A DNA stretch of 64,000 bases from an uncultured Blautia sp. (lineage in GTDB: Bacteria > Bacillota > Clostridia > Lachnospirales > Lachnospiraceae). This document shows positions 5,383 to 36,750 of the stretch, in pieces (the first letter of the stretch is position 1; every line of letters begins with the position of its first letter). Under the pieces are notes generated by a model. The model worked only from the letters and a program-made list of their open reading frames with translations, made no database searches and was not told where the DNA came from. Where the stretch lies: positions 1 through 64,000 of the forward strand of contig NZ_CAKRXI010000007.1 of the NCBI RefSeq assembly GCF_934424005.1. The letters run 5' to 3'. A program made the position numbers and the translations under genes.

Positions 5383-5774
5383 AGAAGAATTCCCCTTTTT
5401 TCATAAATTTCTGCTGCCTCAAGTACCAGTTTGGCGCAATGAGGAGCGTTGTATTTCTGAAGAAGTTCCTGCGCCATCAGAATCAGTTCTTTCTTGGTTG
5501 AACGATTCGGACGCAGTTTGTTATACATATCAAGAATAATATCATCAGGTACATTGACAAGTTCAGCTGCACGCTGAAAATTCGCATCCATAGTTGGATT
5601 ATCTGCTTCTCTTGCAACCTGTCCCTGTTTTTTTAATGTTTCAGCGGAAATCTTGATGTCATCTGCTGTGACATTGCCTTTTTTTACCTCATCAAGGGTA
5701 ATCTGAGAAAGTTTCTTACCGGTTCTTGAAGTAATAGTATCCGCTTCACTCTGCCCTAAAGGATAGCTGCTCAT
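5379..5774 (-). CDS. pduE: B12-dependent propanediol dehydratase small subunit
   Basis: Gamma subunit (131 residues) of the heterohexameric adenosylcobalamin-dependent diol dehydratase. It has the family's N-terminal YPLGQ and a helical C-terminus with VPDDIILDMYNKLRPNRST. The start is ATG 5774, six bases after GGAGGG and sharing ATGA with the pduD stop; an in-frame ATG 15 bases upstream lacks a ribosome site. I see no encapsulation-type helix at its N-terminus, unlike PduD. Glycerol dehydratase subunits are homologous, but the fucose context favours 1,2-propanediol. Confidence 0.92.
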   Translation of the reverse strand: MSSYPLGQSEADTITSRTGKKLSQITLDEVKKGNVTADDIKISAETLKKQGQVAREADNPTMDANFQRAAELVNVPDDIILDMYNKLRPNRSTKKELILMAQELLQKYNAPHCAKLVLEAAEIYEKRGILL

Positions 5775-6460
5775 TTTGTACCCTCCCATTCAATCATGCC
5801 TTTTTCCGGATCCAGCTGCTCTGTCTCAATAATATGAAGAAGTGCTGCTTTTACCTGATATTTTGCACGTACCATTGGATCGTTGGTACATTCGATCGGT
5901 GTTACCTTTTCGCCTTTTACATATTTGGCAGCATTACGACCAATCTTACGATAGGTATCCAGATCCATCAGTGGTGCCTGTGGAAAAAGCTCCAGATTAG
6001 ACAGTGGATACAAATCTTTCTGATGGATGACTGTTGTTCCTTTTGACTGCAGACCGATGCCGATTCCGGATCCGGAAAGCTTCGCTGCTTCCAGTCCCAT
6101 AAAGCCAACATCTGAAGTGTCCAGCACTTTGACAATTCTTGATGTCATGCCTTCTTCCTCAATTCCTGCACGGATATTACGAAGAACTTCATCCAGCGGA
6201 ATGCCGCTCATCGTCTTGGTGATCTCCGTCTGGAATGCTGCTCCGACTCCGATCACAACTTCTTTCGGATCAGTGCCCTTTGCGGCTCTTACCGCACCTT
6301 CATAAGAATGTTTTGGGCGCATTCTTGTTTTTCCGGCAAAACTTCCCGTTCCTGCCGGTTCCGGTGTACTGCTCACATTCTGAGGCTGTGCATCGGATGC
6401 CATAAGCTGTGCAACGACTGCCTGTGTTACGGCACGTACCAGCTGCTCATTTACTTCCAT
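5771..6460 (-). CDS. pduD: B12-dependent propanediol dehydratase medium subunit with encapsulation peptide
   Basis: Beta subunit (229 residues), which together with PduC forms the cobalamin site. Residues about 4-18 (NEQLVRAVTQAVVAQL) are a short amphipathic helix followed by a Gln/Ser/Pro-rich linker to about residue 45. This is the layout of the PduD encapsulation peptide that loads the enzyme into the microcompartment. The conserved body includes PKEVVIGVGAAF and GIGIGLQSKGTTVIHQKDL. ATG 6460 follows AAGGAGGT. It overlaps pduE by four bases and lies 11 bases after pduC. Confidence 0.94.
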   Translation of the reverse strand: MEVNEQLVRAVTQAVVAQLMASDAQPQNVSSTPEPAGTGSFAGKTRMRPKHSYEGAVRAAKGTDPKEVVIGVGAAFQTEITKTMSGIPLDEVLRNIRAGIEEEGMTSRIVKVLDTSDVGFMGLEAAKLSGSGIGIGLQSKGTTVIHQKDLYPLSNLELFPQAPLMDLDTYRKIGRNAAKYVKGEKVTPIECTNDPMVRAKYQVKAALLHIIETEQLDPEKGMIEWEGTK

Positions 6461-6471
6461 GGTGCACCTCC

Positions 6472-8136
6472 TTAAATATCATTTGCGTTGATTCTGTGAG
6501 GAATCGCTTTGATCTCCTCCCAACGCTTACCTGAAACCCGATAACCGGTTCCCGGTCCCATGTAATCGTTTGGTGTATTTACTCCGGACATTACCTGGAA
6601 ATTTTTATCCAGGATTGCTGCCGTCTGCATATAATCACCGATCACTCTCTGTTTCAACATGTTAAGAATATTGTCTGCAAGAACAGTATAGCCACTCTCC
6701 GCAAGCGCTTTGACTACATCAATTCCCGTGATACCTCTCTTCATCATGTCATCTGCAGCCATAAGGTCGGATGCCACATCTCGTTTGAGTGTATCTTTGC
6801 TTCCATGCGCATAGGTAACTGCTTCAACCTGCTCATCTGTCACTTCTGTAAGGCCCAGATATTTAAAGACTGCCTGAACAGCTTTGCCTGCTTCATGACG
6901 GACACGGATGACATCTTCCTCTGTAACAGGACGAAGACCGCCATCCACCTGCATATCTCTCTGTAAAACATTATAATCATCAAAGTCCTCGGCATCAAAA
7001 TTGGATCCCGCGAACATATTGTCGTAGTTTGGTTCTGCTGCATATCCGGAGAAAATAAAGTCTGTTCCCGGCATAAACTGCAGCATGGTTCTTGCTGTTC
7101 TTCTCATATCGGAGTTTGAGAAACTCTGGTCATTGGAAGATGCACACTCGAGTCCGAGAAGTGCTGCAACCAGATTCTCTCCCATAACTTCACGGATACC
7201 CGCCGGAACACCGGCAGCAACACCGATACAGCTTACTGAACCATTCTGGATTCCCTGGCTTCCACAGCCCTTTGTAACATAAAGGCAGCGGCATTCCAGA
7301 TAAAGCATAGATTTCTTTTCACTGCTTCCCATCAGGACTTCAGATCCTGCTCCTGATGTAAAACGTACCTTCAGTCCACGTGATGCATAGGCAGAATTCA
7401 GAAATGCTTTGGAATATGGGGTGTCATCACCATCAATAAATACTTTCTCAGTACCATATACAGAAAGTGTTTCTGCATACGTTGTCAGGCCTCGGATACC
7501 AAGTTCAAGTTCCGTTGCCTCTTCCGCAGAACACTGCGTCAGAACACCCGGACGGCCTGTCTGAGATCCGATCAGAAGTGCCATGGCACTGAACGGTGCA
7601 TATCTGGCAACACCCATTGTTGTCTCTTCTTCACTGAAGCCTCGAAGAGCTCCTTCTGCTGCGTCTGCTGCGATCTGAACCGGATCATCTTTCAGGTTCG
7701 TGATATGAGCCTGGTTTCCAGGTACTTTTCTGGCACGCATTTTCTGCATGCCCATCATCAGCTCAACAACATTCAGATAATTAATTACTTCAACCATTTT
7801 GGCCGGTGTGATACCGGAAACAATTTCCAGTATTTCTTTTCGTGATACATGAATGTCCACGATCTTTCTGGCAATCTCCAGTGATGGAATTGCCATGGAT
7901 GCTTCCGCCCGGTCCGCACGGATCGCATAATCAGCAATGAACTGGTCCAGAAAATCAAACTCATCGCGTTTCTTTCCGTCCAGTTCTGTGATAATACCAT
8001 CTTCTATTTTTACAGAAGGTTTTGGATCGTATGGGCTGTGCATTGACACAAATCCCATTTCCGGCCATTCATCGATGAATCCATCTTTGTTGACCGGTCT
8101 CTGATCCAAAACCTCTATTCTTTTCGATCTTTTCAT
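6472..8136 (-). CDS. pduC: B12-dependent propanediol dehydratase large subunit
   Basis: Catalytic alpha subunit (554 residues, normal length). It forms the TIM barrel in which adenosylcobalamin starts the radical conversion of 1,2-propanediol to propionaldehyde. Diagnostic segments are KRIEVLDQRPVNKDGFIDEW at the start, FTSGAGSEVLMG, CLYVTKGCGSQGIQNG and SNSDMRRTARTM. ATG 8136 lies behind AGGAAGGT. It heads the CDEGHO block, 36 bases after the alcohol dehydrogenase gene. The unusual fact is the presence upstream of a glycyl-radical enzyme (18982-21501) predicted to catalyse the same reaction. Confidence 0.96.
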   Translation of the reverse strand: MKRSKRIEVLDQRPVNKDGFIDEWPEMGFVSMHSPYDPKPSVKIEDGIITELDGKKRDEFDFLDQFIADYAIRADRAEASMAIPSLEIARKIVDIHVSRKEILEIVSGITPAKMVEVINYLNVVELMMGMQKMRARKVPGNQAHITNLKDDPVQIAADAAEGALRGFSEEETTMGVARYAPFSAMALLIGSQTGRPGVLTQCSAEEATELELGIRGLTTYAETLSVYGTEKVFIDGDDTPYSKAFLNSAYASRGLKVRFTSGAGSEVLMGSSEKKSMLYLECRCLYVTKGCGSQGIQNGSVSCIGVAAGVPAGIREVMGENLVAALLGLECASSNDQSFSNSDMRRTARTMLQFMPGTDFIFSGYAAEPNYDNMFAGSNFDAEDFDDYNVLQRDMQVDGGLRPVTEEDVIRVRHEAGKAVQAVFKYLGLTEVTDEQVEAVTYAHGSKDTLKRDVASDLMAADDMMKRGITGIDVVKALAESGYTVLADNILNMLKQRVIGDYMQTAAILDKNFQVMSGVNTPNDYMGPGTGYRVSGKRWEEIKAIPHRINANDI

Positions 8137-18981: not shown

Positions 18982-21501
18982 TTAGAAGCCCTGCTCCGTT
19001 CTTCTGATAATATCATCCTGAAGAGATTTGGACAGTGTTGTAAACAATGCACTGTAACCGGCAACACGAACAACCAGATGTGCATATTTCTCCGGATGTT
19101 TCTGTGCATCAAGCAGTGTTTCTCTGTCAACAACATTGAACTGCATATGCATTCCCTTCTGATCAAAGAACGTACGGATCAGTGCAACGAATTTTTCCAG
19201 TCCTTCCCTTCCTGCAAGTGCAGATGGATGGAATTTCTGGTTAAACAGTGTTCCATTGGATACAATGAAATGGTCCAGTCTGGAAACAGATGTCGCAGCT
19301 GCGGTCGGTCCGTTGACATCTTTACCTGCTGATGGTGATACACCATCTGCAACCGGTGTATGTGCATAACGTCCGTCCGGTGTTGCACCGGTCTGTCCGC
19401 CAAGCGGGACATTCGCTGATACCGGATAAAGTCCTGCATGGAACTGTCCGCCTCGTGGATTATGGTATTTCTGTAACGGGCGGGTATATGTATAGGCAAC
19501 ATCTCTCGCAAAATAATCCACATCATCAATTGCATTTCCGAATTTCGGAACTTCATCGATCATATGATGGATTTCTGCGAATCTGCGAACCTGTTCTTCG
19601 GATGGTTTCAGTCTCATAACTGTTTCAAGAACAGCTTTTGCTGTATCAGTATTGACCTGCATACCGCCATCCTGCATTCCTTTCAATATCATTTCAGTCA
19701 TATCTGCCGCGGACTGTTCATCAAGGCCTTTGTCATAGTTCCATGCCAGAGCCTCTTTGTATTCTTTCATGGAAACTTTCTTATCCTCGTATACAAGCTT
19801 GCGGATCGCATACAGAGAATCTGCCATATTGGCAATACCAAATCCCTGCGGGCCGGTGAAGTTATAAACAGCACCGCCCTGTTCTGCAGTAAGTCCACGC
19901 TGTATACAGTCATCTAGCATAGAAGCCAGGAACGGAAGCGGGCATCTTTCTGCATGTGCCACATCGATTGCATTATCTGCATTGACCATAAGTGAAATAA
20001 AGTATTCCATCTGTGTCTTATAGGCATCATAAAATTCTTCAAAGCTTGTCATCTGTGTGACATCGCCGGTCTGAACGCCGATCTGTTCACCTTTGTCCAT
20101 TCCATTTGCAAAAACAACTTCCAGTGGACGACACATATTAAAGAATGCTGCATCATGCCAGCCATTTGTCTTACCGGACTTCTGAGGTTCTACACATCCG
20201 ATGATGTTATATTCTCTGGCATCTTCCAGTGTCAGTCCTCTGTTCTGCAGTGCCGGAATGATCACTTCATCATTATAATAAGCCGGTAATCCGATACCTG
20301 TTCTTGTAAGGTCTGCTGCCTTGATCAGAAGTTCATGCGGTGAACCGTTCCATACACGAATGGAAAGTGACGGCTGCGGCAGAAATACCTGTTTGGATGC
20401 TTCAATACACATGAAAGAAAGGTCATTTGTCACATCCTCACCGTATTTGTTCTGTCCACCGACGATCAGGTTCTGGAAAAGGCTGTATCCTGCAAATCCC
20501 TTTGCCGACTCTTCATCACGGCACTTGTTCAGATCATTCAGCTTAACCCAGATACAGTCGATGAGTTCCTGTGCCGTTTCTCTTGTGATCAGGCCTTTGT
20601 CAAGATCTGCTTTATAATAAGGATACATATACTGATCAAAACGTCCAGGTGAAATGGAATGTCCGCTGGACTCCATCTGGAGCAGCTGCTGTACAAACCA
20701 GAAGGACTGGCATGCTTCGTAAAAGCTGGTTGCTCCGTTTGCAGGCACGCGGCTGCAGTTCTGCGAAATCTGAAGCAGTTCCTGCTTACGTACAGGATCC
20801 GTGCACTCTGCTGCCATCTGGGAAGCCAGTTCGGCATAACGCTCCGCATATTCAATAACAGCCTGGCAGGAAAGGATCACCGCATTCAGGAAATGACTCT
20901 TTGTAACATAATTTGCATCTCCAACCTGGCATTTTTCCAGTTCTGCCTGTGCTTTATCTATGATTCCTTTGTAACCGATGGCAAGTACTTCGCCATATTT
21001 GACGGTCACATGTCCTACACCATTATAGAAATAGTTACCTGGTGTAAAAATGTTATGTTCGATAGCTTTGATTGCTTCCGGAGTCATATAGGATGTAGCA
21101 AGTTCACTGGATGTCTTACCTTTCCAGTATTTATGTACTTCTCTCAACTCCTGCTTGGTTTCTTCTGCAATATAAAACGGGTCCGCGCTCCTCGTTTCAA
21201 CGGTATCCAGTTCATCTTCCAGCCACTGGAAGGAAAATTCCGGGAAAGTCTGACATCCTCTCGGTGCAATCGTACTGCTTCCAACGATCAGTTCATTATC
21301 ACGAATAATGATCGGGATATTACGGAGAATATGGGCAAAAGCTTCCGCACGCCTTGTGATCATCGGCTGACCTTCTGTAGCCTTATATGATTCAGTAAGC
21401 AGCTTTGCTCTGGCAGATTCAATAACCGGCATATTGGCATAAAGTGCCTCGACCAACTTCGGAATCCTGGATGACTTTGGAACATCTGTGGTATTAAACA
21501 T
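18982..21501 (-). CDS. B12-independent (glycyl-radical) 1,2-propanediol dehydratase
   Basis: An 839-residue glycyl-radical enzyme that would dehydrate 1,2-propanediol to propionaldehyde without cobalamin. The thiyl cysteine is in NIIGCVEPQKSG (about residue 435), and the radical glycine is in VVRVAGYSALF, 25 residues from the end. The pocket and aldolase neighbourhood favour the propanediol type over choline, glycerol or pyruvate formate-lyase. The N-terminus goes straight into the fold, with no encapsulation peptide. I chose ATG 21501, ten bases after AAAGGAG; GTG 21507 is possible but only four bases from it. It has its own strong promoter. Confidence 0.9.
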   Translation of the reverse strand: MFNTTDVPKSSRIPKLVEALYANMPVIESARAKLLTESYKATEGQPMITRRAEAFAHILRNIPIIIRDNELIVGSSTIAPRGCQTFPEFSFQWLEDELDTVETRSADPFYIAEETKQELREVHKYWKGKTSSELATSYMTPEAIKAIEHNIFTPGNYFYNGVGHVTVKYGEVLAIGYKGIIDKAQAELEKCQVGDANYVTKSHFLNAVILSCQAVIEYAERYAELASQMAAECTDPVRKQELLQISQNCSRVPANGATSFYEACQSFWFVQQLLQMESSGHSISPGRFDQYMYPYYKADLDKGLITRETAQELIDCIWVKLNDLNKCRDEESAKGFAGYSLFQNLIVGGQNKYGEDVTNDLSFMCIEASKQVFLPQPSLSIRVWNGSPHELLIKAADLTRTGIGLPAYYNDEVIIPALQNRGLTLEDAREYNIIGCVEPQKSGKTNGWHDAAFFNMCRPLEVVFANGMDKGEQIGVQTGDVTQMTSFEEFYDAYKTQMEYFISLMVNADNAIDVAHAERCPLPFLASMLDDCIQRGLTAEQGGAVYNFTGPQGFGIANMADSLYAIRKLVYEDKKVSMKEYKEALAWNYDKGLDEQSAADMTEMILKGMQDGGMQVNTDTAKAVLETVMRLKPSEEQVRRFAEIHHMIDEVPKFGNAIDDVDYFARDVAYTYTRPLQKYHNPRGGQFHAGLYPVSANVPLGGQTGATPDGRYAHTPVADGVSPSAGKDVNGPTAAATSVSRLDHFIVSNGTLFNQKFHPSALAGREGLEKFVALIRTFFDQKGMHMQFNVVDRETLLDAQKHPEKYAHLVVRVAGYSALFTTLSKSLQDDIIRRTEQGF

Positions 21502-21590
21502 CTCCACGCTTCTCCTTTCTTATGGTGTCTCTGGCACCATAGCTCATATGCAATCAAAAGGCGCTTTGGCCCCACGATTCATATAAAATC

Positions 21591-23218: not shown

Positions 23219-23512
23219 TCACTTTTTTCCTTCCCGAATCTCCCTCATCAGTTCCGCCAGCTCGCTATATTTCCCGGTTACATAGCCGTAGTTCTGTGCC
23301 TTATGGGGCAGCTGGCAGTTCGTGCAGTCTTTGATTCCCTTATCTGTCATTCTGAAATTCCCGCCGCATTTATCCCCCAGCGCATACAGTGGACAATAGC
23401 AGAACAGACAGTTAAAATTCTCGGGATCTGCTCCCGCATGACACGGAAAATATTCACATTCTTTGTTGCTGAAAAATGCATAATGTTTTCCTTCCCAATA
23501 TGGTTTCTCCAT
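23219..23512 (-). CDS. Cysteine-rich small domain protein (cobalamin-associated family)
   Basis: A 97-residue soluble protein with eight cysteines arranged as CEYFPCH, FNCLFCYCPLY, DKCGG and DCTNC, so it surely binds metal (zinc or Fe-S). It resembles the 'cysteine-rich small domain' family (Pfam PF04071 as I recall), whose members often accompany or fuse with cobalamin biosynthesis genes. A cobalamin riboswitch transcript lies 0.8 kb upstream on the same strand, which agrees, though a separate gene and a terminator lie between. ATG 23512 follows GGGAGGT. Confidence 0.75.
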   Translation of the reverse strand: MEKPYWEGKHYAFFSNKECEYFPCHAGADPENFNCLFCYCPLYALGDKCGGNFRMTDKGIKDCTNCQLPHKAQNYGYVTGKYSELAELMREIREGKK

Positions 23513-23569
23513 TTATTTTTACCTCCCTTGTTGACTTCTTCCATTTCCTTATGATATTATTTTTACATA

Positions 23570-23632
23570 AGAAGCGGTTTTGTACCACTTGACTATTCAG
23601 CATTAGTCTTGAGTGGGTTACTCGCTTCTTTT
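23570..23632 (+). terminator. Stem-loop with U-run on the + strand, overlapping a gene end
   Basis: AAGAAGCG pairs with CGCTTC over a long loop and is followed by TTTTTTTAT on the + strand. It overlaps the 3' end of the minus-strand gene at 23593. No + strand gene lies immediately upstream, so what it terminates is unclear. Confidence 0.4.
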
Positions 23633-24123
23633 TTTATATTCACTATATCATAAAGATACATTCTATTAGCAGATGTCCGATTTACTACAAGGCTCGCAGA
23701 ATATACATTATATTCCCCTGTATTTTTTTCATTGTCATAAATCGGTATCGCAAATCTTGTTATATAATAATACCATCCATTCTGAGCATCACCACAATGT
23801 TTTTCTTTATAATTGGGACGAAATGTTTTTTGTGTTGCTATCTCTACCATTTCTCTGATTCCTTGTGCAGCATTTGCCTTAGCTTTCGCCCGGGCTCCCC
23901 TCATTTTCCTGGTATATTTTGAGCTACTGTACTCATCCGGGAATTTATTTCCAATATAAATTTTATCCTTTGTTTCAATTACCTCTATCAGTTCTCCAAC
24001 ATATCTTTGAAGATAACATTCAACCTCATTCCAATCAATGTTCTGTTTATTGCTGAATATGATATCCGGTAAAATTGCTACTTTATTCCCATAATTATCT
24101 GCAACAATTTTTAGTTTTTTCAT
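23593..24123 (-). CDS. Conserved protein of unknown function, resembling phage MuF-type C-terminal nuclease-like domains
   Basis: A 176-residue soluble protein. The C-terminal half (NGWYYYITRFAIPIYDN, then YNVYSASLVVNR and LYDIVNIKKE) resembles the small RNase/toxin-like domain found at the end of phage MuF and polyvalent proteins; here it stands alone. The N-terminal half (NYGNKVAILPDIIF, YIGNKFPDEYSSS) is seen, from memory, in related stand-alone Lachnospiraceae proteins. I cannot name catalytic residues with confidence, and no antitoxin-like partner adjoins it. It has lower GC than its neighbours, which hints at mobility. ATG 24123 follows AGAGG at only four bases. Confidence 0.6.
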   Translation of the reverse strand: MKKLKIVADNYGNKVAILPDIIFSNKQNIDWNEVECYLQRYVGELIEVIETKDKIYIGNKFPDEYSSSKYTRKMRGARAKAKANAAQGIREMVEIATQKTFRPNYKEKHCGDAQNGWYYYITRFAIPIYDNEKNTGEYNVYSASLVVNRTSANRMYLYDIVNIKKEASNPLKTNAE

Positions 24124-24283
24124 TATACCTCTTTCATATTGTATAATTTGCTTTCTGTATTATTTTTCACTTTTCCACACACAATGCATTCTGTTAATTG
24201 CAAATTATCATCTTTTCCATTATAAGGCAATAAAAAAACATCGTAAAATTCTTTCAAAATTCGACACAAACAGCTTTATATAT

Positions 24284-24315
24284 AAAAAAATCCAGTCACG
24301 GCACTGCCGAACTGG
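24284..24315 (-). terminator. Terminator closing the cobalamin-riboswitch micro-transcript
   Basis: On the minus strand CCAGT-CGGCA / TGCCG-ACTGG forms a compact stem followed by ATTTTTTTAT. It lies 20 bases after the stop of the 30-codon ORF and ends the short transcription unit. Confidence 0.85.
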
Positions 24316-24335
24316 TCATCATTAACACGCAATTA

Positions 24336-24428
24336 TTAGAGGATTTGCGATACTGCTCCGGGGTAGACAATGAATCCGTTCAAATATGCGGAGGGAACGA
24401 ATGCATCCGGAGTAGTACCGCCTGCCAT
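24336..24428 (-). CDS. Predicted 30-residue small protein, second in the cobalamin-riboswitch transcript
   Basis: ATG 24428 to TAA 24338-24336. The peptide starts MAGGTTPDAFVPSAYLNG and ends AVSQIL; it is neither a membrane helix nor a signal peptide. AAAGGG lies nine bases upstream, an adequate ribosome site, and the start directly follows the stop of the 27-codon ORF (TAAATG), which suggests coupling. It is the last ORF before the terminator at 24284-24315. No homologue is known to me. It may instead be the remnant of a lost cobalamin gene. Confidence 0.45.
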   Translation of the reverse strand: MAGGTTPDAFVPSAYLNGFIVYPGAVSQIL

Positions 24429-24512
24429 TTAATCATACCCTTTGAGGGTTATATGTCTGTGGCGGCCACCACAAACATAATGGTATAATTCATACGAACA
24501 GGCGAATTCCAT
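24429..24512 (-). CDS. Predicted 27-residue Cys/His peptide, first in the cobalamin-riboswitch transcript
   Basis: ATG 24512 directly follows the U-run of the riboswitch terminator, and TAA ends at 24429. The peptide begins MEFACSYELYHYVCGGRHRH and so carries two Cys and three His within 16 residues, a pattern that could bind a metal such as cobalt. Its only ribosome-site candidate (GCAGG) lies inside the terminator stem, so it would be accessible only in the antiterminated form. A 14-codon frame (MNYTIMFVVAATDI) overlaps it. Translation is unproven. Confidence 0.35.
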   Translation of the reverse strand: MEFACSYELYHYVCGGRHRHITLKGYD

Positions 24513-24546
24513 AAAAAAATGCCTGCTTCCAACAAGCAGACAACAC
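24509..24546 (-). terminator. Riboswitch expression-platform terminator
   Basis: TGTCTGCTT pairs with AAGCAGGCA across a five-base loop and is followed by TTTTTTT, directly after the cobalamin aptamer. It implies transcription stops when cobalamin is bound. Confidence 0.85.
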
Positions 24547-24599
24547 TTTGGGTTGCGGATACCCTAAGTTGGTTGTTACACTTTACACGGAAGTTTAAC

Positions 24600-24795
24600 C
24601 TCGCCATACAAAGCAGGTTTCCTGACTTCAGGATCATCACTCCTTTTCCCCTTCTCATACAATTGTACAATGGGATATCGAAAAGTCGCTCCTCTGTTAC
24701 AGTGACCGGATCGCTCAGGACTCTCACCTGATTCCCTCTTCTGACTGCTACGCGGATTACAGTCAGCACTTCATATGTTCTATATGGAATTATAC
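24600..24795 (-). promoter_or_regulatory. Cobalamin riboswitch 1 (controls a micro-transcript)
   Basis: The minus strand shows the conserved aptamer parts in order: CAGGTGAGAGTCCTG, GATCCGGTCACTGTAA, a variable region, and the B12 box GAAGTCAGGAAACCTGC near 24612-24632. A terminator follows at 24509-24546, so the element should switch off with adenosyl- or other cobalamin. Downstream there are only two tiny ORFs and a second terminator; the next real gene starts at 24123. The ORF that spans the aptamer (24449-24817) is a shadow. Confidence 0.92.
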
Positions 24796-24802
24796 TGACA
24801 TT

Positions 24803-24831
24803 ATAATAGCACAGCACCTATGCCCTGTCAA
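24803..24831 (-). promoter_or_regulatory. Promoter of cobalamin riboswitch 1
   Basis: Consensus TTGACA (24826-24831) and TATTAT (24803-24808, overlapping TATAAT) with a 17-base spacer on the minus strand. The strength argues that the short transcript is made and is not decayed DNA. Confidence 0.8.
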
Positions 24832-24956
24832 TGCCAAACAGTATTTTTGACATAAATTTATCAATCATTATTGTTCACGGCAACACTGATTTCTCTTATG
24901 TATTTATAGCTGTACATTTCTTGCTTTTTCCTATTAACTTAACTATACTGAATAAC

Positions 24957-25110
24957 CAGAAGGTTACTGTTCACTCCGTTCACAGCAACTTGGTCAAAAT
25001 CCATTCCAAATCACCTTCGGTGATAGGATTTTGCCTCGTATGTCTCGGGATTTTGCCATATTTATGGCAAAACACCTCGCGGAATATTACCTATGAATAG
25101 TTACACCAGA
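24957..25110. repeat. Palindrome-rich element upstream of nudC
   Basis: The segment begins GGTTACTGTTCACTCCGTTCAC and ends TGAATAGTTACACC, imperfectly complementary. It contains the hairpin TCACCTTCGGTGA, the pairs CAAAATCC/GGATTTTG, and GCCATATTTATGGC. A related GTTCACGGCAAC piece lies at 24872, and CTGTGAACAATAACC follows nudC at 25995, an inverted match of the left end. It looks like a dispersed hairpin element. Confidence 0.45.
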
Positions 25111-25138
25111 AAACATTTTTATCACGAGGAGGTTTTTT

Positions 25139-25987
25139 ATGATTCAGGACATCTATCCACATATATATCACAATGAATATAAACCGGTTGCACCGGATGA
25201 AAACAGTATCATTCTGGCCTACGATAATGGAAAGTGTTTTTTTCATTTAGATCAAAATGATAGTACTATTACTCTTCCACGTTTTAAAGAACTGGAAGGT
25301 CAGCTGTCTGATCTGTACGAAAACTACATTTATCTATTTTCTATCGACGAGGAACGTTTTTATCTGATTCCGGGGCTTGATACATCTCTGCTGCCTGGGT
25401 ATGAATTTTACGAAACTCGCTCGCTCCGTTATGCCCATCCACAGCATCTCTCTTTTGCTGTAATCACCGGACATCAGCTTTACCAGTGGTATAAAAGTCG
25501 TCGGTATTGCGGCTGCTGCGGGCATGCTATGAAACACGACACAAAAGAACGTATGATGTACTGTCCTGACTGCGGCCATCAGGAATATCCGGTACTTATG
25601 CCGGCAGTCATCGTCGGTATCACGAATGGAGACAAGATTATTTGCTCCAAATACGAAGGCAGAAGCTTTAAACAATATGCCCTGATCGCCGGTTTCGCAG
25701 AAATTGGCGAAACAATTGAAGAAACTGTCCACCGCGAGGTCATGGAAGAGGTTGGTCTGAAAGTAAAAAATCTCCGCTATTATAAAAGTCAGCCATGGTC
25801 CTTCTCAGGCACATTACTTTTTGGATTTTTCTGCGATGTAGACGGAGATGATACACTCACAGTAGATCATGAAGAGCTTTCCGTAGCTCAGTGGTTTGAT
25901 CGTGACAAGATTATTGGTCAGGACACCGACAGCAGTCTTACCAATGAAATGATGATGGTTTTTGCTGCCGGAAAAGAACCCAAATAG
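25139..25987 (+). CDS. nudC: NAD(+)/NADH diphosphatase (NudC-type Nudix hydrolase)
   Basis: A 282-residue enzyme that cleaves NADH or decaps NAD-RNA. It has a central zinc ribbon (YCGCCGHAM … YCPDCGHQEYP, residues about 123-150), the Nudix box GFAEIGE … REVMEEVGL (about 185-207), and the NudC specificity motif SQPWSFSGTL in place of the usual SQPWPFP. The N-terminal domain is degenerate, as is normal. ATG 25139 follows GAGGAGG. It is a single gene, flanked by related inverted repeats. Confidence 0.9.
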   Translation: MIQDIYPHIYHNEYKPVAPDENSIILAYDNGKCFFHLDQNDSTITLPRFKELEGQLSDLYENYIYLFSIDEERFYLIPGLDTSLLPGYEFYETRSLRYAHPQHLSFAVITGHQLYQWYKSRRYCGCCGHAMKHDTKERMMYCPDCGHQEYPVLMPAVIVGITNGDKIICSKYEGRSFKQYALIAGFAEIGETIEETVHREVMEEVGLKVKNLRYYKSQPWSFSGTLLFGFFCDVDGDDTLTVDHEELSVAQWFDRDKIIGQDTDSSLTNEMMMVFAAGKEPK

Positions 25988-26096
25988 TATTCCCTGTGAA
26001 CAATAACCAATTAATCGCAGTTTTTTACGATAACTCTGGTAATTTCAGACAAAAACCGTTATAATAGACATATTATTGTTCTGTGGGAGTCTTATC

Positions 26097-27998
26097 ATGA
26101 AAAAAGTTGCGCTGATCACAAACGGGCAGGCTCGTTATGTGACTCATGGATGGATTGAGGGCTATCGACGCTATATTGCCGAACATCATTCTGATATAAA
26201 TTTATATGCTTTTCACTGTTTTGGGGATTTCAGTCAGGATCCTAATTATAATATCGGTGAATATAATATAACAAAACTTCCACAACTATCTGATTTTGAC
26301 GGAATTCTTCTGGATCTTGCTCTAATTCCCGACCGAGAACTTAAGGAAGAAATTGCTGATCGAGCGCGGATGGCATCTGTACCTGTTGTTTCTCTTCTGG
26401 ATCAGGTTCCTGATTTCTATTTTTCAGGAATCGATGACTACCAGGCAATCTGTACCATCACGGAACACCTTATTGTTGACCGCCATTGCAAATACATTAA
26501 TTATGTAGGCGGTATTCCTGGAAATTATGAGAATCTGCAGCGTTTTCATGGTTACAAAGACACTCTCAGTAAGTATGGCATCAAGTTTGATCCAAAGCGT
26601 GTTTATGAATATAATTACGAAGTAAAAACCGGACTCAGGGCTTTCACCGAATTTCAGAATAACGGTGTTCTTCCTGAGGCTTTTGTGTGCGCAAATGACA
26701 ATATTGCTGCTGGTATCTGTCTGGCAGCACAGGAGGCAGGATACAGCATTCCTAAAGATTTTCTGGTTACTGGATTTGATAACACTGAAAAAGCCATATA
26801 TTTTGATCCACCTATCACAACAATTGATTTTTCCAAGGCAGACATTATGTATAATGCACTGTGTCTTCTTTATGACATCTGGAACGGCACTAATAAAAGC
26901 AGCGAACGATTTGCTCCCACTCGGCGGATATATCGTGAAAGCACTGGCTGCGAATCGATACGGCCGACCGATCCCGGAAACTTCGTGACTGAACAGATTC
27001 TGTCTGAGGTACGCCAGAGCAATATGTTAAGCTGGATGATGGATCTCGACCGTTTTCTTCTGGACTGCACAAGTTTCTCTGAACTCGCAGATCATATGGA
27101 TACCTGGCTGGCTGAACATAACTGTGGAAATTTGTATCTGCTGTTAAACACGGATATTTCTATCCTTGAAAAACATGAAGAACTCCCGGAGGTACCTGAT
27201 GATCTGTATCAGAGTATCGGATACCCTGATCGTATGACTATTGTACACCCTCATCAGTCCAACAATCCTTCTGGTCAGATTGATCTTTCAAAAGGCGAGC
27301 TCATTCCATTTGCCGGCACTCCAGCGCCTTCGCAGTTTTACCTTTTTGCGCCGGTTCATTTCCGTGAACGCGAAATCGGATATCTTGTCCTTGAAAACTG
27401 TGATTTTCTTACAAAACATCAGTTTCTGTTTGAGACTTTAAAAACTTTTGGAACAGCCATAGAATCGCTCTACGGAAAACTTATCCTGGAGAAAAAGACC
27501 CGGCAGCTTTCAAACCTTTATATCCATGATTCTCTGACTGGGCTATACAATCGTATGGCATATGAAAAGCTGGCACTTCCAATGTTCCAGGAAAACATGT
27601 CTGAACTCCGACCAACGGGAATCATGTTTGTAGATGCCGATCATCTGAAGTATATTAATGATAATTTCGGACATGACAAGGGGAATATGGCGATCAGCAG
27701 CATTGCATCTGTCTTGCGGCAGCAATGTCCTGTAAATTCTGTCCTCATGCGTTATGGAGGGGATGAATTTGTCTGCATCATTCCTGATCATGATCAGTCT
27801 ATGATGCTTAAGCTACAGCAAAAGATCACCGATTCACTTGCTGTACTTTCGTTAAGCACTGGTATTGGATTTCCAATTGAGGCCAGTATCGGATTTGTTG
27901 TGGCAGAGGATCCCCGTATTTCACTGAATGACTATATCAATCAGGCTGACGAAAAAATGTATCTTGCAAAAAAAGCACGTAACGCAACGCGTAAATAG
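26097..27998 (+). CDS. Diguanylate cyclase with LacI-type sensor domain, copy 1
   Basis: A 633-residue cytosolic protein. Residues 1-270 are a LacI-type periplasmic-binding fold (KKVALITNGQ; PEAFVCANDNIAAGICLAAQEAG; FDPPITTIDF) without a helix-turn-helix. Residues about 300-460 are a linker and GAF-like segment (FREREIGYLVLENCDF). Residues about 475-633 are a GGDEF domain with DSLTGLYNRMAYEKL, FVDADHLKYINDNFGHDKGN and an intact RYGGDEF, so it should make cyclic di-GMP in response to a small ligand, probably a sugar. No RxxD inhibitory site precedes GGDEF. There is no signal peptide or membrane segment. ATG 26097 is seven bases after GGGAG. Confidence 0.88.
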   Translation: MKKVALITNGQARYVTHGWIEGYRRYIAEHHSDINLYAFHCFGDFSQDPNYNIGEYNITKLPQLSDFDGILLDLALIPDRELKEEIADRARMASVPVVSLLDQVPDFYFSGIDDYQAICTITEHLIVDRHCKYINYVGGIPGNYENLQRFHGYKDTLSKYGIKFDPKRVYEYNYEVKTGLRAFTEFQNNGVLPEAFVCANDNIAAGICLAAQEAGYSIPKDFLVTGFDNTEKAIYFDPPITTIDFSKADIMYNALCLLYDIWNGTNKSSERFAPTRRIYRESTGCESIRPTDPGNFVTEQILSEVRQSNMLSWMMDLDRFLLDCTSFSELADHMDTWLAEHNCGNLYLLLNTDISILEKHEELPEVPDDLYQSIGYPDRMTIVHPHQSNNPSGQIDLSKGELIPFAGTPAPSQFYLFAPVHFREREIGYLVLENCDFLTKHQFLFETLKTFGTAIESLYGKLILEKKTRQLSNLYIHDSLTGLYNRMAYEKLALPMFQENMSELRPTGIMFVDADHLKYINDNFGHDKGNMAISSIASVLRQQCPVNSVLMRYGGDEFVCIIPDHDQSMMLKLQQKITDSLAVLSLSTGIGFPIEASIGFVVAEDPRISLNDYINQADEKMYLAKKARNATRK

Positions 27999-28031
27999 CT
28001 ATAGACTATTTTTTTAAGATTGGATAACCGA

Positions 28032-29930
28032 ATGAAAAAGGTAGCACTTATTACTGATGGATGGCAGCGATATTTCACCTATGCCTGGATAACCGGGTAT
28101 CGTCAATATATGGCAGAACATCCGACCGATATCAACCTATATGTTTTTCACTGCTTCGGCAACTTCAGTAAAGACCAGAATTTTAACACAGGTGAATACA
28201 ATATTGTCCAGCTTCCGGAGCTTTCAAACTTTGACGGTATCCTTCTGGATCTTTCCAACATTCTGGATATACATGTCAAAAACCAAATCATAGATTTTGC
28301 CAGAAGAGCAGCTGTACCAGTCATATCTCTTCTTGAAGAAATTCCCGGAATGTATTTTTCCGGTATTGATAACTATGCTGCCACAAGTGCACTGATGGAA
28401 CATCTGATCACTGTTCATGACTGCCGGACCATCAATTACGTTCACGGACCAGAAACAAGTTATGAAAATCAGCAGCGTTTTCTTGCTTATAAAGAATCCC
28501 TGCTCAGACACGGAATCGCATATGAACCAGAGCGTGCAGCGGGACAGAATTATGAAATTGAAACCGGTATCCAGGCTTTTCATAATTTCAAAGAAAAGGA
28601 TCTGCTGCCTGATGCTTTTGTCTGCGCAAACGATAACATTGCGGTTGGTCTTTGCCTCGCAGCACGCGACTCCGGATACAGGATTCCTGAAGATTTTATC
28701 GTCACAGGTTATGATAATGAAAACAAAGCCTCTTACTTTAACCCACGCATCACAACTGTTGGATTTTACAAAACCCAGATCATGTACAACGCCATGGAGC
28801 TTTTTTGTGACATATGGGATAATTCAGTGACGTCAACGCATGTTTACGCGCCTGTCACTCATGTTTTTCAGGAAAGCTGCGGCTGTATCCCTGCAAACCC
28901 TGCAAAACGAGGAAAATATGTTGCTGACAGCATCATGTCAGAAGTCCACCAAAGTGATATGCAGAACTGGATGATGGAACTCGACCGCTATCTTCTCGAC
29001 TGTACCAGTTTTACTGAGCTTGCCGAGCATCTGCATATCTGGCTTTCCACTCATGAATGCGGCAATCTCTCTATGCTTATGAATCCAGACATCTTTCTGC
29101 TCGAAAATATAGATGTTCTTCCTGATATCCCAGATGATCTTTATCAGACTCAAGGCTATCCTGAACAAATGGCTGTTGTTTACCCACGCACAGGCACTGA
29201 AACAACAACTCTGGAACGTTATACCGGTGCACTGCTCCCAAATACATCGGATTTTGAAAAGCAGAATGTATATCTGTTTTCTCCCATACATTTTCGTGAA
29301 CGCGAGATTGGATATCTGATCCTTGAGAACTGCGATTTTCTCTTATGTCATCAGTTTCTATTTGGGACACTTAATACTTTTTGTACTGCGATCGAGGCAC
29401 TTTACAACAAGCTGATCCTCCGCAAGAAAAACAATCAGCTCTCACAACTTTATCTTCAGGATTCACTCACCGGACTTTATAACCGCATGGCATATGAAAG
29501 ACTGGCAATTCCTACATATCAGCACTATGTCCAGCACGGTAAACCCGTAGGGATCATGTTTATAGATGCTGACCACCTGAAATATATCAATGACCATTTT
29601 GGTCATGGCATGGGCAACCTTGCGATCAGCAACATTGCCTCCGTGATCCAGCAGCAATGTCCATCCAATTCCATTTGCATGCGTTATGGCGGAGATGAGT
29701 TTGTCTGTGTGATTCCGGATCATGACCATGCACAAATGCATGAACTGGAGCAGAACATTACTCATTCCCTTCAGATTCTGTCTTCCAACAATCGTATGGA
29801 TTTTTCAATCGAAGCCAGCATCGGTTTTGTGGTCGCAGATGATCCGCAGCGTTCCCTTAATGATTGCATCAATCTTGCAGATGAAAAAATGTATGAAGTA
29901 AAAAAGAACCGTAAAATAGTTCATAAATAA
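28032..29930 (+). CDS. Diguanylate cyclase with LacI-type sensor domain, copy 2
   Basis: A 632-residue paralogue of the preceding gene, aligned over its full length (KKVALITDGWQ; DAFVCANDNIAVGLCLAARDSG; RYGGDEFVCVIPDH). The sensor half differs more than the GGDEF half, so the two probably sense different ligands and share the output. The catalytic motif is intact; no RxxD site is visible. The start is ATG 28032 by alignment with copy 1; the ribosome site is poor (GGAT), and with only 33 bases between the genes it may depend on translation of copy 1. It converges on the binding-protein gene at 29977. Confidence 0.87.
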   Translation: MKKVALITDGWQRYFTYAWITGYRQYMAEHPTDINLYVFHCFGNFSKDQNFNTGEYNIVQLPELSNFDGILLDLSNILDIHVKNQIIDFARRAAVPVISLLEEIPGMYFSGIDNYAATSALMEHLITVHDCRTINYVHGPETSYENQQRFLAYKESLLRHGIAYEPERAAGQNYEIETGIQAFHNFKEKDLLPDAFVCANDNIAVGLCLAARDSGYRIPEDFIVTGYDNENKASYFNPRITTVGFYKTQIMYNAMELFCDIWDNSVTSTHVYAPVTHVFQESCGCIPANPAKRGKYVADSIMSEVHQSDMQNWMMELDRYLLDCTSFTELAEHLHIWLSTHECGNLSMLMNPDIFLLENIDVLPDIPDDLYQTQGYPEQMAVVYPRTGTETTTLERYTGALLPNTSDFEKQNVYLFSPIHFREREIGYLILENCDFLLCHQFLFGTLNTFCTAIEALYNKLILRKKNNQLSQLYLQDSLTGLYNRMAYERLAIPTYQHYVQHGKPVGIMFIDADHLKYINDHFGHGMGNLAISNIASVIQQQCPSNSICMRYGGDEFVCVIPDHDHAQMHELEQNITHSLQILSSNNRMDFSIEASIGFVVADDPQRSLNDCINLADEKMYEVKKNRKIVHK

Positions 29931-32206: not shown

Positions 32207-32984
32207 ATCGTTTTCCCTCCATTTCCGGCACTGCCTCCAATAATTCTCTTGTATAATCACTGGTCGGATTATTCAGGACTTCTTCTCTCGTTCCATGATC
32301 CACCACTTTGCCATGGTGCATAACGATCAGCTGATCTGCCATATAGGCCGCCACACCGATATTATGTGTGACAATAATGATTCCTGTTCCATAATCATCC
32401 CGAAGTTCCATCATCTGACGGACAATCTGCGCCTGGGTAGTGACATCCAGTGCACTGGTAGGTTCATCTGCCAGGAGAAGTTCCGGATTAAAAGTCATTG
32501 CCATTGCAATGCCGACACGCTGACGCATACCGCCGGACAGCTGATATGCATAACTATTCATAATATTCTCTACATCAGGGAGTCTCATTTTAGAAAGCAT
32601 AGAAACTGCTTTATTCCAGGCTTCCTGTTTTGATACAGACTCATGAGTACGAATATATTCCACATACTGACTGCCAATCTTACGGATTGGATTTAAAGTT
32701 CCTCCGCAATCCTGAAAGATCATGGACATTTTACTTCCACGGATCTTTCTCCATTCATTTCCGGTATTTTTCAGGAGAGACTCTCCATGAAAAAGAATGT
32801 CTCCCGAGCTTACCCGGCCTGCTCCGGGGAGAGCCCCCAGAACAGCACGGATCACGGTGGTCTTACCGCTTCCACTTTCTCCTACAATACTGATGATCTC
32901 TCCTTTTTTCATAGAAAGATTAAAATGTTCGATCGTAGGATCCTGTTTTCCATATTGCACAGCCAGATCTTTAATTTCCAGCAT
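32199..32984 (-). CDS. Dpp/Opp/Nik-family ABC transporter ATPase (DppD-like)
   Basis: A 261-residue partner ATPase with Walker A VGESGSGKTTVI, signature LSGGMRQRVGIAMA and Walker B LLADEPTSALD. It is about 60 residues shorter than typical DppD and lacks the C-terminal cysteine-containing extension that its DppF-like partner keeps; NikD-type ATPases are similarly short, so this favours a metal-type transporter over a peptide one. The start is ATG 32984, seven bases after AAGGAG; the ATG six bases upstream is too close to it. Confidence 0.88.
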   Translation of the reverse strand: MLEIKDLAVQYGKQDPTIEHFNLSMKKGEIISIVGESGSGKTTVIRAVLGALPGAGRVSSGDILFHGESLLKNTGNEWRKIRGSKMSMIFQDCGGTLNPIRKIGSQYVEYIRTHESVSKQEAWNKAVSMLSKMRLPDVENIMNSYAYQLSGGMRQRVGIAMAMTFNPELLLADEPTSALDVTTQAQIVRQMMELRDDYGTGIIIVTHNIGVAAYMADQLIVMHHGKVVDHGTREEVLNNPTSDYTRELLEAVPEMEGKRYV

Positions 32985-36473: not shown

Positions 36474-36529
36474 TTTACACACGAAAAAACAATGCTTCCT
36501 ATCTACCGTAAGAATCATATCTGATCATT

Positions 36530-36720
36530 TGCAAGCAGGTCTCCTGACTTAAGATCTTTGCTCCAAAGCCCCTTCCCAAATCTGTACACACAGATTCAGT
36601 GGTATTTATGCTTCGCAGCTCCCTATTACAGTGACGGGATCGTACCGGATTCACACCGGTTTCCCTTTTAATCCTGACAGAACTCAAAAATCTGACAGGA
36701 ACTTACAAAGGCTGGTTCAA
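36530..36720 (-). promoter_or_regulatory. Cobalamin riboswitch 2 (controls the Dpp/Nik-type ABC operon)
   Basis: On the minus strand the aptamer core reads GGGAAACCGGTGTGAATCCGG, GATCCCGTCACTGTAA and the B12 box TTAAGTCAGGAGACCTGC (36536-36553). A terminator follows at 36446-36473, then the dppB-like gene. The order aptamer, terminator, gene supports transcriptional repression by cobalamin. Confidence 0.93.
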
Positions 36721-36750
36721 AACCAACAAATGTTATTTATTTACAACTTT

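Follow-up and report, generated by a model that had tools for sequence, protein, structure and literature searches.

A conserved structured RNA behind the cobalamin riboswitches of Blautia and relatives, and its possible role as a second cis-acting gate

A conserved structured RNA element of about 80–180 nt lies behind the cobalamin riboswitch of an uncultured Blautia sp., of many other Blautia and of a few related gut bacteria. Its junction and loop sequences are invariant and its helices covary; it occupies a fixed place behind the cobalamin aptamer, contains a strand shared by two helices, and is followed by a recurrent set of genes. On the basis of these comparisons, we give a probability of about 0.57 to the reading that the element is a second gate, acting in cis and placed after the B12 riboswitch in the leader RNA of a corrinoid-related gene. 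The trigger of such a gate could be the same B12 aptamer, for which the element would then be a second expression platform, or it could be another ligand or a protein.

The unit was studied in a window of 64 000 nucleotides (the whole stretch analysed; contig NZ_CAKRXI010000007.1), and its features are listed in table 1. An earlier sequence-only reading of this region was partly confirmed: the promoter, the aptamer, the platform terminator, the two tiny ORFs joined by TAAATG and the second terminator are all present on the minus strand, and it is the meaning assigned to them that differs. The AAAGGG that it placed ahead of ORF2 is there as well, where it forms the 3′ strand of a hairpin arm that varies. 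Its statement that no ordinary gene is in the unit does not hold, given that in relatives the unit includes a B12-type gene, which the window has in intact form. The stretch 24280–24610 folds better than its shuffled versions (z −4.6; 0 of 100 shuffles). Terminator 2 was missing from a first simple terminator scan and was found by a later terminator script. On the plus strand of the window, positions 26076–29930 code for two tandem paralogous proteins, both combining a periplasmic-binding-protein-like domain with a GGDEF domain.

Table 1. Features of the riboswitch unit and of its downstream flank in the window.
Feature	Position	Strand	Evidence or remark
Promoter TTGACA-17-TATTAT, TG before −10	24831–24803	−	11/12 consensus match
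Cobalamin riboswitch aptamer RF00174, L5 = UCCGG	24788–24595	−	covariance model, 100.2 bits
First expression platform: L13-type hairpin ACUUCCGUGUAAAGU, AACAAC...GUUGU hairpin (loop AUCCGCA), terminator 1 and U-tract	24594–24513	−	
Terminator 1 hairpin, then TTTTTTT	24542–24520	−	
Conserved structured element: ATGGAAT, P1, P2, variable P3 arm, joining AAATGG, P4, P5 loop CCTCCGC	24512–24347	−	conservation, covariation, model R1
P1 5′ strand CGCCTG	24504–24499	−	
Shared middle strand CAGGCG, P1 3′ side	24424–24419	−	GCG at 24421–24419 is also the lower P4 5′ foot
P5 loop CCTCCGC	24394–24388	−	
P4 3′ strand CCGGAGCAGTATCGC	24361–24347	−	
ORF1, 27 codons	24512–24429	−	chance ORF within RNA element
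ORF2, 30 codons	24428–24336	−	chance ORF within RNA element; joined to ORF1 by TAAATG
Terminator 2	hairpin 24315–24292, U-tract 24290–24284	−	−13.5 kcal/mol
176-aa ORF inserted between element and PF04071 gene	24123–23593	−	also in G001
97-aa PF04071 Cys-rich protein gene, the element's usual neighbour	23512–23219	−	E 3.3e-31

The conserved parts of the element follow a set order. ATGGAAT stands just after the U-tract of terminator 1 and is followed by CGCCTG-TTCnnnnGAA-TTATAC, then by a P3 arm ranging from nothing to about 50 nt, then by GATTAAATGG-CAGGCG and finally by the long P4/P5 hairpin with its loop CCTCCGC. Within this loop CTCCGC is kept in 62 of the 65 sequences long enough (window included). 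Alignment A1 combines the window with 33 of the 48 loci of the genus; the other 15 are near-identical, cut or divergent (L052, L059, L061, L064, L071, L073, L074, L076, L079, L080, L084, L088, L094, L095 and L096). In A1, 98.0 per cent of the cells are paired. Nine pairs are changed on both sides, compared with a mean of 3.1 in shuffled alignments (0 of 500), and 40 cells are changed on both sides compared with 8.7 in the shuffles; when the partners are slid by one to three columns, pairing falls to 20–45 per cent. The conserved entity behind the aptamer is a structured RNA, not a peptide.

A search of Rfam 15 with window positions 23500–25200, at E up to 5, returned only RF00174 and a GA-cis RNA, neither of them on the element; at gathering threshold, the relatives returned only RF00174 and, off the element, Clostridiales-1. 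The GA-cis RNA (RF02987, 24955–25039, minus strand; 38.5 bits against a gathering score of 34.7) lies between the B12 unit and a NUDIX gene; it appears with permissive filters on the stretch and is absent from the whole-window search. Clostridiales-1 RNA (RF01699) lies near the unit or the PF04071 gene in three genomes (L084:2240–2445, L098:2012–2151 and L115:1081–1235). No published description of the element was found in the literature searched, which leaves out most subscription journals, and it is not named in the available parts of PMC12452182 and PMC3766115.

The two tiny ORFs had been put forward as a possible B12-controlled metal peptide. Neither is interrupted in the window, and the two closest relatives, and no others, share the 30-codon length of ORF2. 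Starts of ORF1 and ORF2 were found at 60 and 57 of the 65 related loci, but the lengths run from 2 to 164 codons for ORF1 and from 7 to 151 for ORF2 (a few are cut by contig ends); ORF1 has 15 codons in L052 and, with another C-terminus, 26 in L053. Differences in the length of the P3 arm shift the reading frame. The start of ORF1 lies at the U-tract of terminator 1, and no ribosome-binding site was seen before it. The earlier reading had asked whether the ORFs or only the RNA structure are conserved, and the answer is that frame and stops of both ORFs vary freely while the RNA is kept. It had also considered that the ORFs might be remnants of a full-length gene behind the same aptamer: the aptamer does precede full-length genes in relatives, and the ORFs are not remnants of them. 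A coding function was rejected, as frame and length are not kept, and a small metal-binding peptide or a coupled pair of tiny ORFs is very hard to credit. The ORFs are best seen as a by-product of the sequence of the RNA element.

The distribution of the element is narrow. A pattern scan of genome contigs gave 51 loci, among which only L007 (in genome G001) and L031 (in G002), both from Blautia, are true relatives. A BLAST search of the genus found the element in 47 of 64 genomes, at 48 loci (G030 has two). An identity of 92 per cent over the element, together with neighbouring genes shared with G001, points to a Blautia-like origin of the window. When a covariance model (R1) made from the window plus 33 of the 48 genus loci was run on a family sample of 397 genomes, under strict filters that may lose weak copies, it detected the element in six genomes, of which two belong to the genus and four do not; a gapped core pattern found it in five genomes of the same sample. 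In the genera of the four outside genomes, the element is present in 10 of 20 genomes (the genus shared by G092 and G410), four of five and three of three. The distinct loci besides the window thus number 65, of which 48 are in the genus and 17 outside, where the occurrence is sporadic. No similar DNA was found in plasmids and phages; viral contigs gave no match to the first pattern and six to the gapped core pattern.

The association with the cobalamin riboswitch is complete among these loci. RF00174 lies upstream of the element on the same strand at all 65 (by batch 20/20, 20/20, 12/12 new and 13/13 new), at a distance of mostly about 70–100 nt and never more than about 250 nt, and the aptamer of the window scores well above the gathering score of 31.5 bits. 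No element lacking a cobalamin aptamer was found, either among the 65 loci or in the 397-genome family sample searched by model and pattern under strict filters. Within the 120 nt preceding the aptamer core, the best promoter site matches at least nine of 12 consensus positions at all 66 places compared, which are related sequences, and at least 11 of 12 at 36 of them; the random-window control gave 149 and 29 of 1320, respectively.

The loop L5 reads TCCGG at all 66 places, and CTTCCG stands behind the aptamer in 63 of them, replaced by CTTCCTGG in the other three (L102, L164 and L165). The riboswitch studied has, by sequence, the matching three-base complement of an L5–L13 kissing loop, and CTTCCG directly after the aptamer is likely to be L13. 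A set of 41 riboswitches without the element (40 of the 41 above the cut-off, and the second riboswitch of the window) serves for comparison; 26 could not be parsed, and among the others UCCCG goes with TT[AG]CGG in all 11 cases, UCCGG with CTTCCG in both and TCCTG with neither in both. The second cobalamin riboswitch of the window (36517–36721, minus strand, 113.7 bits) has L5 = UCCCG, compared with UCCGG in the one studied here, and stands upstream of an ABC transporter operon (BPD_transp_1 permease, SBP_bac_5 binding protein and oligo_HPY-type ATPase). In the repressing corrinoid riboswitch of P. megaterium metE, three base pairs of L5–L13 kissing are combined with P13/antiterminator/terminator logic (PMC10653944). 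The three-base L5–L13 match is common to both systems, here as UCCGG with CTTCCG and, in the same genomes, as UCCCG with TT[AG]CGG; the available part of that paper describes no second element.

Terminator 1 would be the OFF platform, making gate 1 an OFF switch here. It is absent in L164 and L165, both of which keep the element. The loop motif UCCGC recurs in the platform-1 hairpin of many loci, in the P3 arm of L055, L065, L081 and L087, and in the element itself (62 of 65). These loops could be extra kissing partners for L5, which is invariant, so that covariation is uninformative. Two other pairings were considered. The loops of the element might have been the sole L13, as their CCG complements the CGG of L5 and L164 and L165 lack platform 1; this is weakened by the CTTCCG found at 63 of 66 places. 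A pairing of the P5 loop TTCCCTC with GAGGGAA of the aptamer was rejected, as the aptamers carry both AAAGGGAA and AGAGGGAA while the loop is unchanged.

Two mutually exclusive helices sharing one strand are the usual architecture of a switch, and the element has such a pair. P1 is formed by CGCCTG and CAGGCG, and the lower part of P4 by the same GCG with a 3′ CGC; the middle strand CAGGYGAT can therefore pair upstream, as P1, or downstream, as lower P4. In A1, P1 is nearly invariant and hence offers no covariation test. In five of the 17 sequences outside the genus (L102, L157, L160, L164 and L165), the middle C is changed to T and G is changed to A on both partner strands; these matched changes indicate that evolution has followed both alternative helices there. 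In L103 and L161–L163 the middle base mismatches both partners (L162 by eye), and in L104, L105, L155, L156, L158 and L159 one P1 pair is broken by a C–A. When all six P1 pairs are considered, 12 of the 17 sequences outside the genus and two of the 48 inside have one or more of them broken. An ungapped script missed the 3′ strand of P4 in about 13 sequences (including L056, L058, L059, L061, L062, L064, L085, L093, L104, L154–L156 and L162), for which P4 was taken from the alignment or by eye. A second conserved RNA structure and an alternative pairing in one leader, by which tandem riboswitches are recognized, are thus both found, with the exceptions in P1. We infer that the choice between P1 and P4 would be the switching step.

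A gene for a Cys-rich PF04071 protein is found downstream at 51 of the 65 loci, a MATE-family gene at six and neither at eight, two of which end at contig ends; six loci (L063, L086, L153, L154, L157 and L160) have neither gene within the available flank. MATE genes were identified by similarity to the translation from L105, which is MatE by Pfam (PF01554, E 4.5e-48); at L140, a PF01554 gene stands behind the PF04071 gene. At 32 loci no more than 170 nt separate the GATTAAA anchor of the element from the start of the PF04071 gene, which in the genus lies about 80 nt or less past P4. There is thus little space for a separate promoter, and control in cis is the simpler reading. The description of the unit as a self-contained micro-transcript therefore does not apply generally.

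A search for PF04071 gave matches in 89 of 299 genomes and returned 30 loci. Among 28 PF04071 loci outside the genus, the element is present only at L110 and L117, both already known, and besides these only L129 has a cobalamin riboswitch within flanks of up to 1.5 kb. The element therefore accompanies the riboswitch, not the gene. In relatives, PF04071 is fused to CbiG (L112:1504–2871), to CbiK and CbiD (L118:253–2595) and to CbiC and DBI_PRT (L125:376–2433), and also to non-corrinoid enzymes (L113 and L127). It is a corrinoid-linked family and a candidate cobalt- or corrin-handling domain. No literature was found on PF04071, or on its domain name together with cobalamin, in a search that leaves out most subscription journals.

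A terminator was found after the element at 36 of the 65 loci by a simple script, which missed, for example, that of L153, where a strong stem is accompanied by just four T. In L070, L071, L073 and L074, the terminator found uses the 3′ strand of P4 and so excludes P4. At many loci of the genus, terminator 2 is a separate hairpin of drifting sequence with no visible coupling to P1 or P4. At L065, L081, L097, L098, L103 and L161–L163, a Shine–Dalgarno sequence and an ATG follow the element, and no terminator was found.

In the proposed mechanism, binding of B12 at gate 1 would lead to L5–L13 kissing, formation of terminator 1 and the end of transcription. When B12 is scarce, the polymerase would read on and the second element would be made. 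Its middle strand would then pair either as P1, which closes a small three-way junction whose joining bases are invariant, or as lower P4, and the outcome would set the expression of the next gene, coding for the PF04071 protein or sometimes a MATE transporter. The point of output may be the terminator just behind the element or the Shine–Dalgarno sequence of the next gene, which at the eight loci just listed lies close behind P4. In L164 and L165, with no terminator 1, the element would act alone. The presence of the element in 47 of the 64 genus genomes and the constant upstream RF00174 favour this mechanism, as do the covariation in A1, the matched changes around the shared strand, the terminators that use the P4 3′ strand, the recurrent downstream genes and the corrinoid link of PF04071. 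Against it stand the broken P1 pairs outside the genus, the drifting terminator 2 of many genus loci, the six loci with neither gene in the flank and the fusions of PF04071 to non-corrinoid enzymes. A further point against it comes from a unit whose gene has been displaced.

This is the case in the window and in G001, where an insertion of about 0.75 kb separates terminator 2 from the PF04071 gene, now about 0.77 kb behind. The inserted 176-aa ORF matches no Pfam family, is preceded by the promoter-like TTTACG-17-TATAAT and is absent from that place in L031 of G002, where about 20 nt lie between the U-tract of terminator 2 and the start of the gene. The insertion might have separated the leader from its gene, leaving a non-functional remnant in the window strain. 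Yet the aptamer is 95.9 per cent identical between the window and G001, platform 1 95.1 per cent, P4/P5 98.9 per cent (one of 89 positions differs) and terminator 2 100 per cent (33 of 33 bases, 24316–24284), compared with 82.5 per cent for the spacer (28 of 160 differ), 88.5 per cent for the inserted ORF and 86.1 per cent for the gene. Other parts of the unit are less alike, namely the P3 arm (85.7 per cent), the tail after P4 (75.0 per cent) and the 29 promoter bases (65.5 per cent, with the hexamers kept). We regard the remnant as improbable. P4/P5 and terminator 2 have thus remained under strong constraint though the gene has moved away. Control of the next gene in cis does not require this, and the retention of the two parts is the best argument for action beyond that gene or for continued read-through.

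Such action could be that of a B12-gated small RNA, as the sequence-only reading had suggested. The read-through transcript made at low B12 would end at terminator 2 and act in trans on other mRNAs, either through the C-rich loop UUCCCUCCGC, which resembles an anti-Shine–Dalgarno sequence, or by binding a protein. The noncoding part of this idea is borne out, since a conserved structured RNA does lie behind the B12 riboswitch, with a terminator behind it in the window as at 36 of the 65 loci; its near-invariant loop, the 88 of 89 P4/P5 bases kept despite a gene-sized insertion, and L153, L154, L157 and L160, with no PF04071 or MATE gene in the flank, would all suit a trans-acting RNA. Against it, one of these two genes follows the element at 57 of the 65 loci. 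In a target search covering 37 start regions of the window, some of them guessed, the loop paired no better than shuffled loops did: the best duplex has −14.7 kcal/mol, and 38 per cent of the shuffled loops did as well. The ABC ATPase gene at 32220 (minus strand) has an 8-base match GGAGGGAA in its start region, which is unremarkable for a Shine–Dalgarno sequence. We consider a trans-acting RNA rather unlikely. As for the proposed link to a choice between two propanediol dehydratases, a B12-type diol dehydratase (Dehydratase_LU and _MU, 5771–8136) and a glycyl-radical enzyme (PFL-like, Gly_radical, 18982–21507), both on the minus strand, do occur in the window, and no tie to the element was found. 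The glycyl-radical gene adjoins in the window and in L007, and none was recognized by eye among the ORFs of L031.

EutX and Rli55 of Enterococcus and Listeria, the closest parallel to such a transcript, carry a dual ANTAR-type hairpin with six-base loops. The element differs from them in that no such hairpin was seen by eye, the conserved loops being of 4–5 bases in P2 and about 15 in P5 (also by eye), and in that a corrinoid-related gene follows in most relatives. The earlier comparison with these RNAs stands only for the order of modules in the sequence, aptamer, terminator and further RNA; in EutX/Rli55, according to the available part of the source, the terminator of an AdoCbl riboswitch decides whether the downstream RNA module is made (PMC5821096).

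Tandem arrangements offer a second parallel. The available parts of two papers report SAM-I/AdoCbl, AdoCbl/SAM-I and AdoCbl/c-di-GMP-I tandems (PMC9481103, PMC12452182), which likewise have a second structured control element stacked with an AdoCbl riboswitch; the second element here differs in matching no Rfam 15 family in the window search described above. In the c-di-GMP riboswitch Bc1 of Bacillus, one aptamer with a long expression platform is followed by two intrinsic terminators in series, affecting transcription and translation (PMC11218506, available part). Two terminators behind one aptamer are also seen here; the ligand of Bc1 is another one, and the same part of that paper mentions no conserved element between its terminators.

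Within the reading as a cis-acting gate, and overlapping with it as a sub-case, the element might be an independent aptamer for another ligand, that is, a new riboswitch class forming a two-input gate with B12. The invariant unpaired bases of the three-way junction and the shared P1 strand resemble an aptamer with its platform, AdoCbl tandems with other riboswitches are known, and orphan candidates adjoin many validated riboswitches, an arrangement observed and not discussed in the available part of PMC9481103. The constant company of the cobalamin aptamer and the narrow distribution speak against an independent aptamer, which we judge a possible and rather doubtful sub-case.

More broadly, and tentatively, with odds below even, the element may be the founding member of a class of gut-bacterial control RNAs working only with a cobalamin aptamer. 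It would be either a second decision point of that aptamer, with CCG loops replacing L13 at L5, or a new aptamer adding a second signal; a B12-gated trans-acting transcript would be a further use where the gene has moved away. The analysis also highlights PF04071 as an uncharacterized, putative corrinoid-handling protein. With 65 sequences, clear helices and a testable candidate strand exchange, the element is a defined orphan RNA with which a ligand or partner can be sought. Should it prove to be a second gate, this common gut genus would have two inputs or two checkpoints in its B12 control rather than one.
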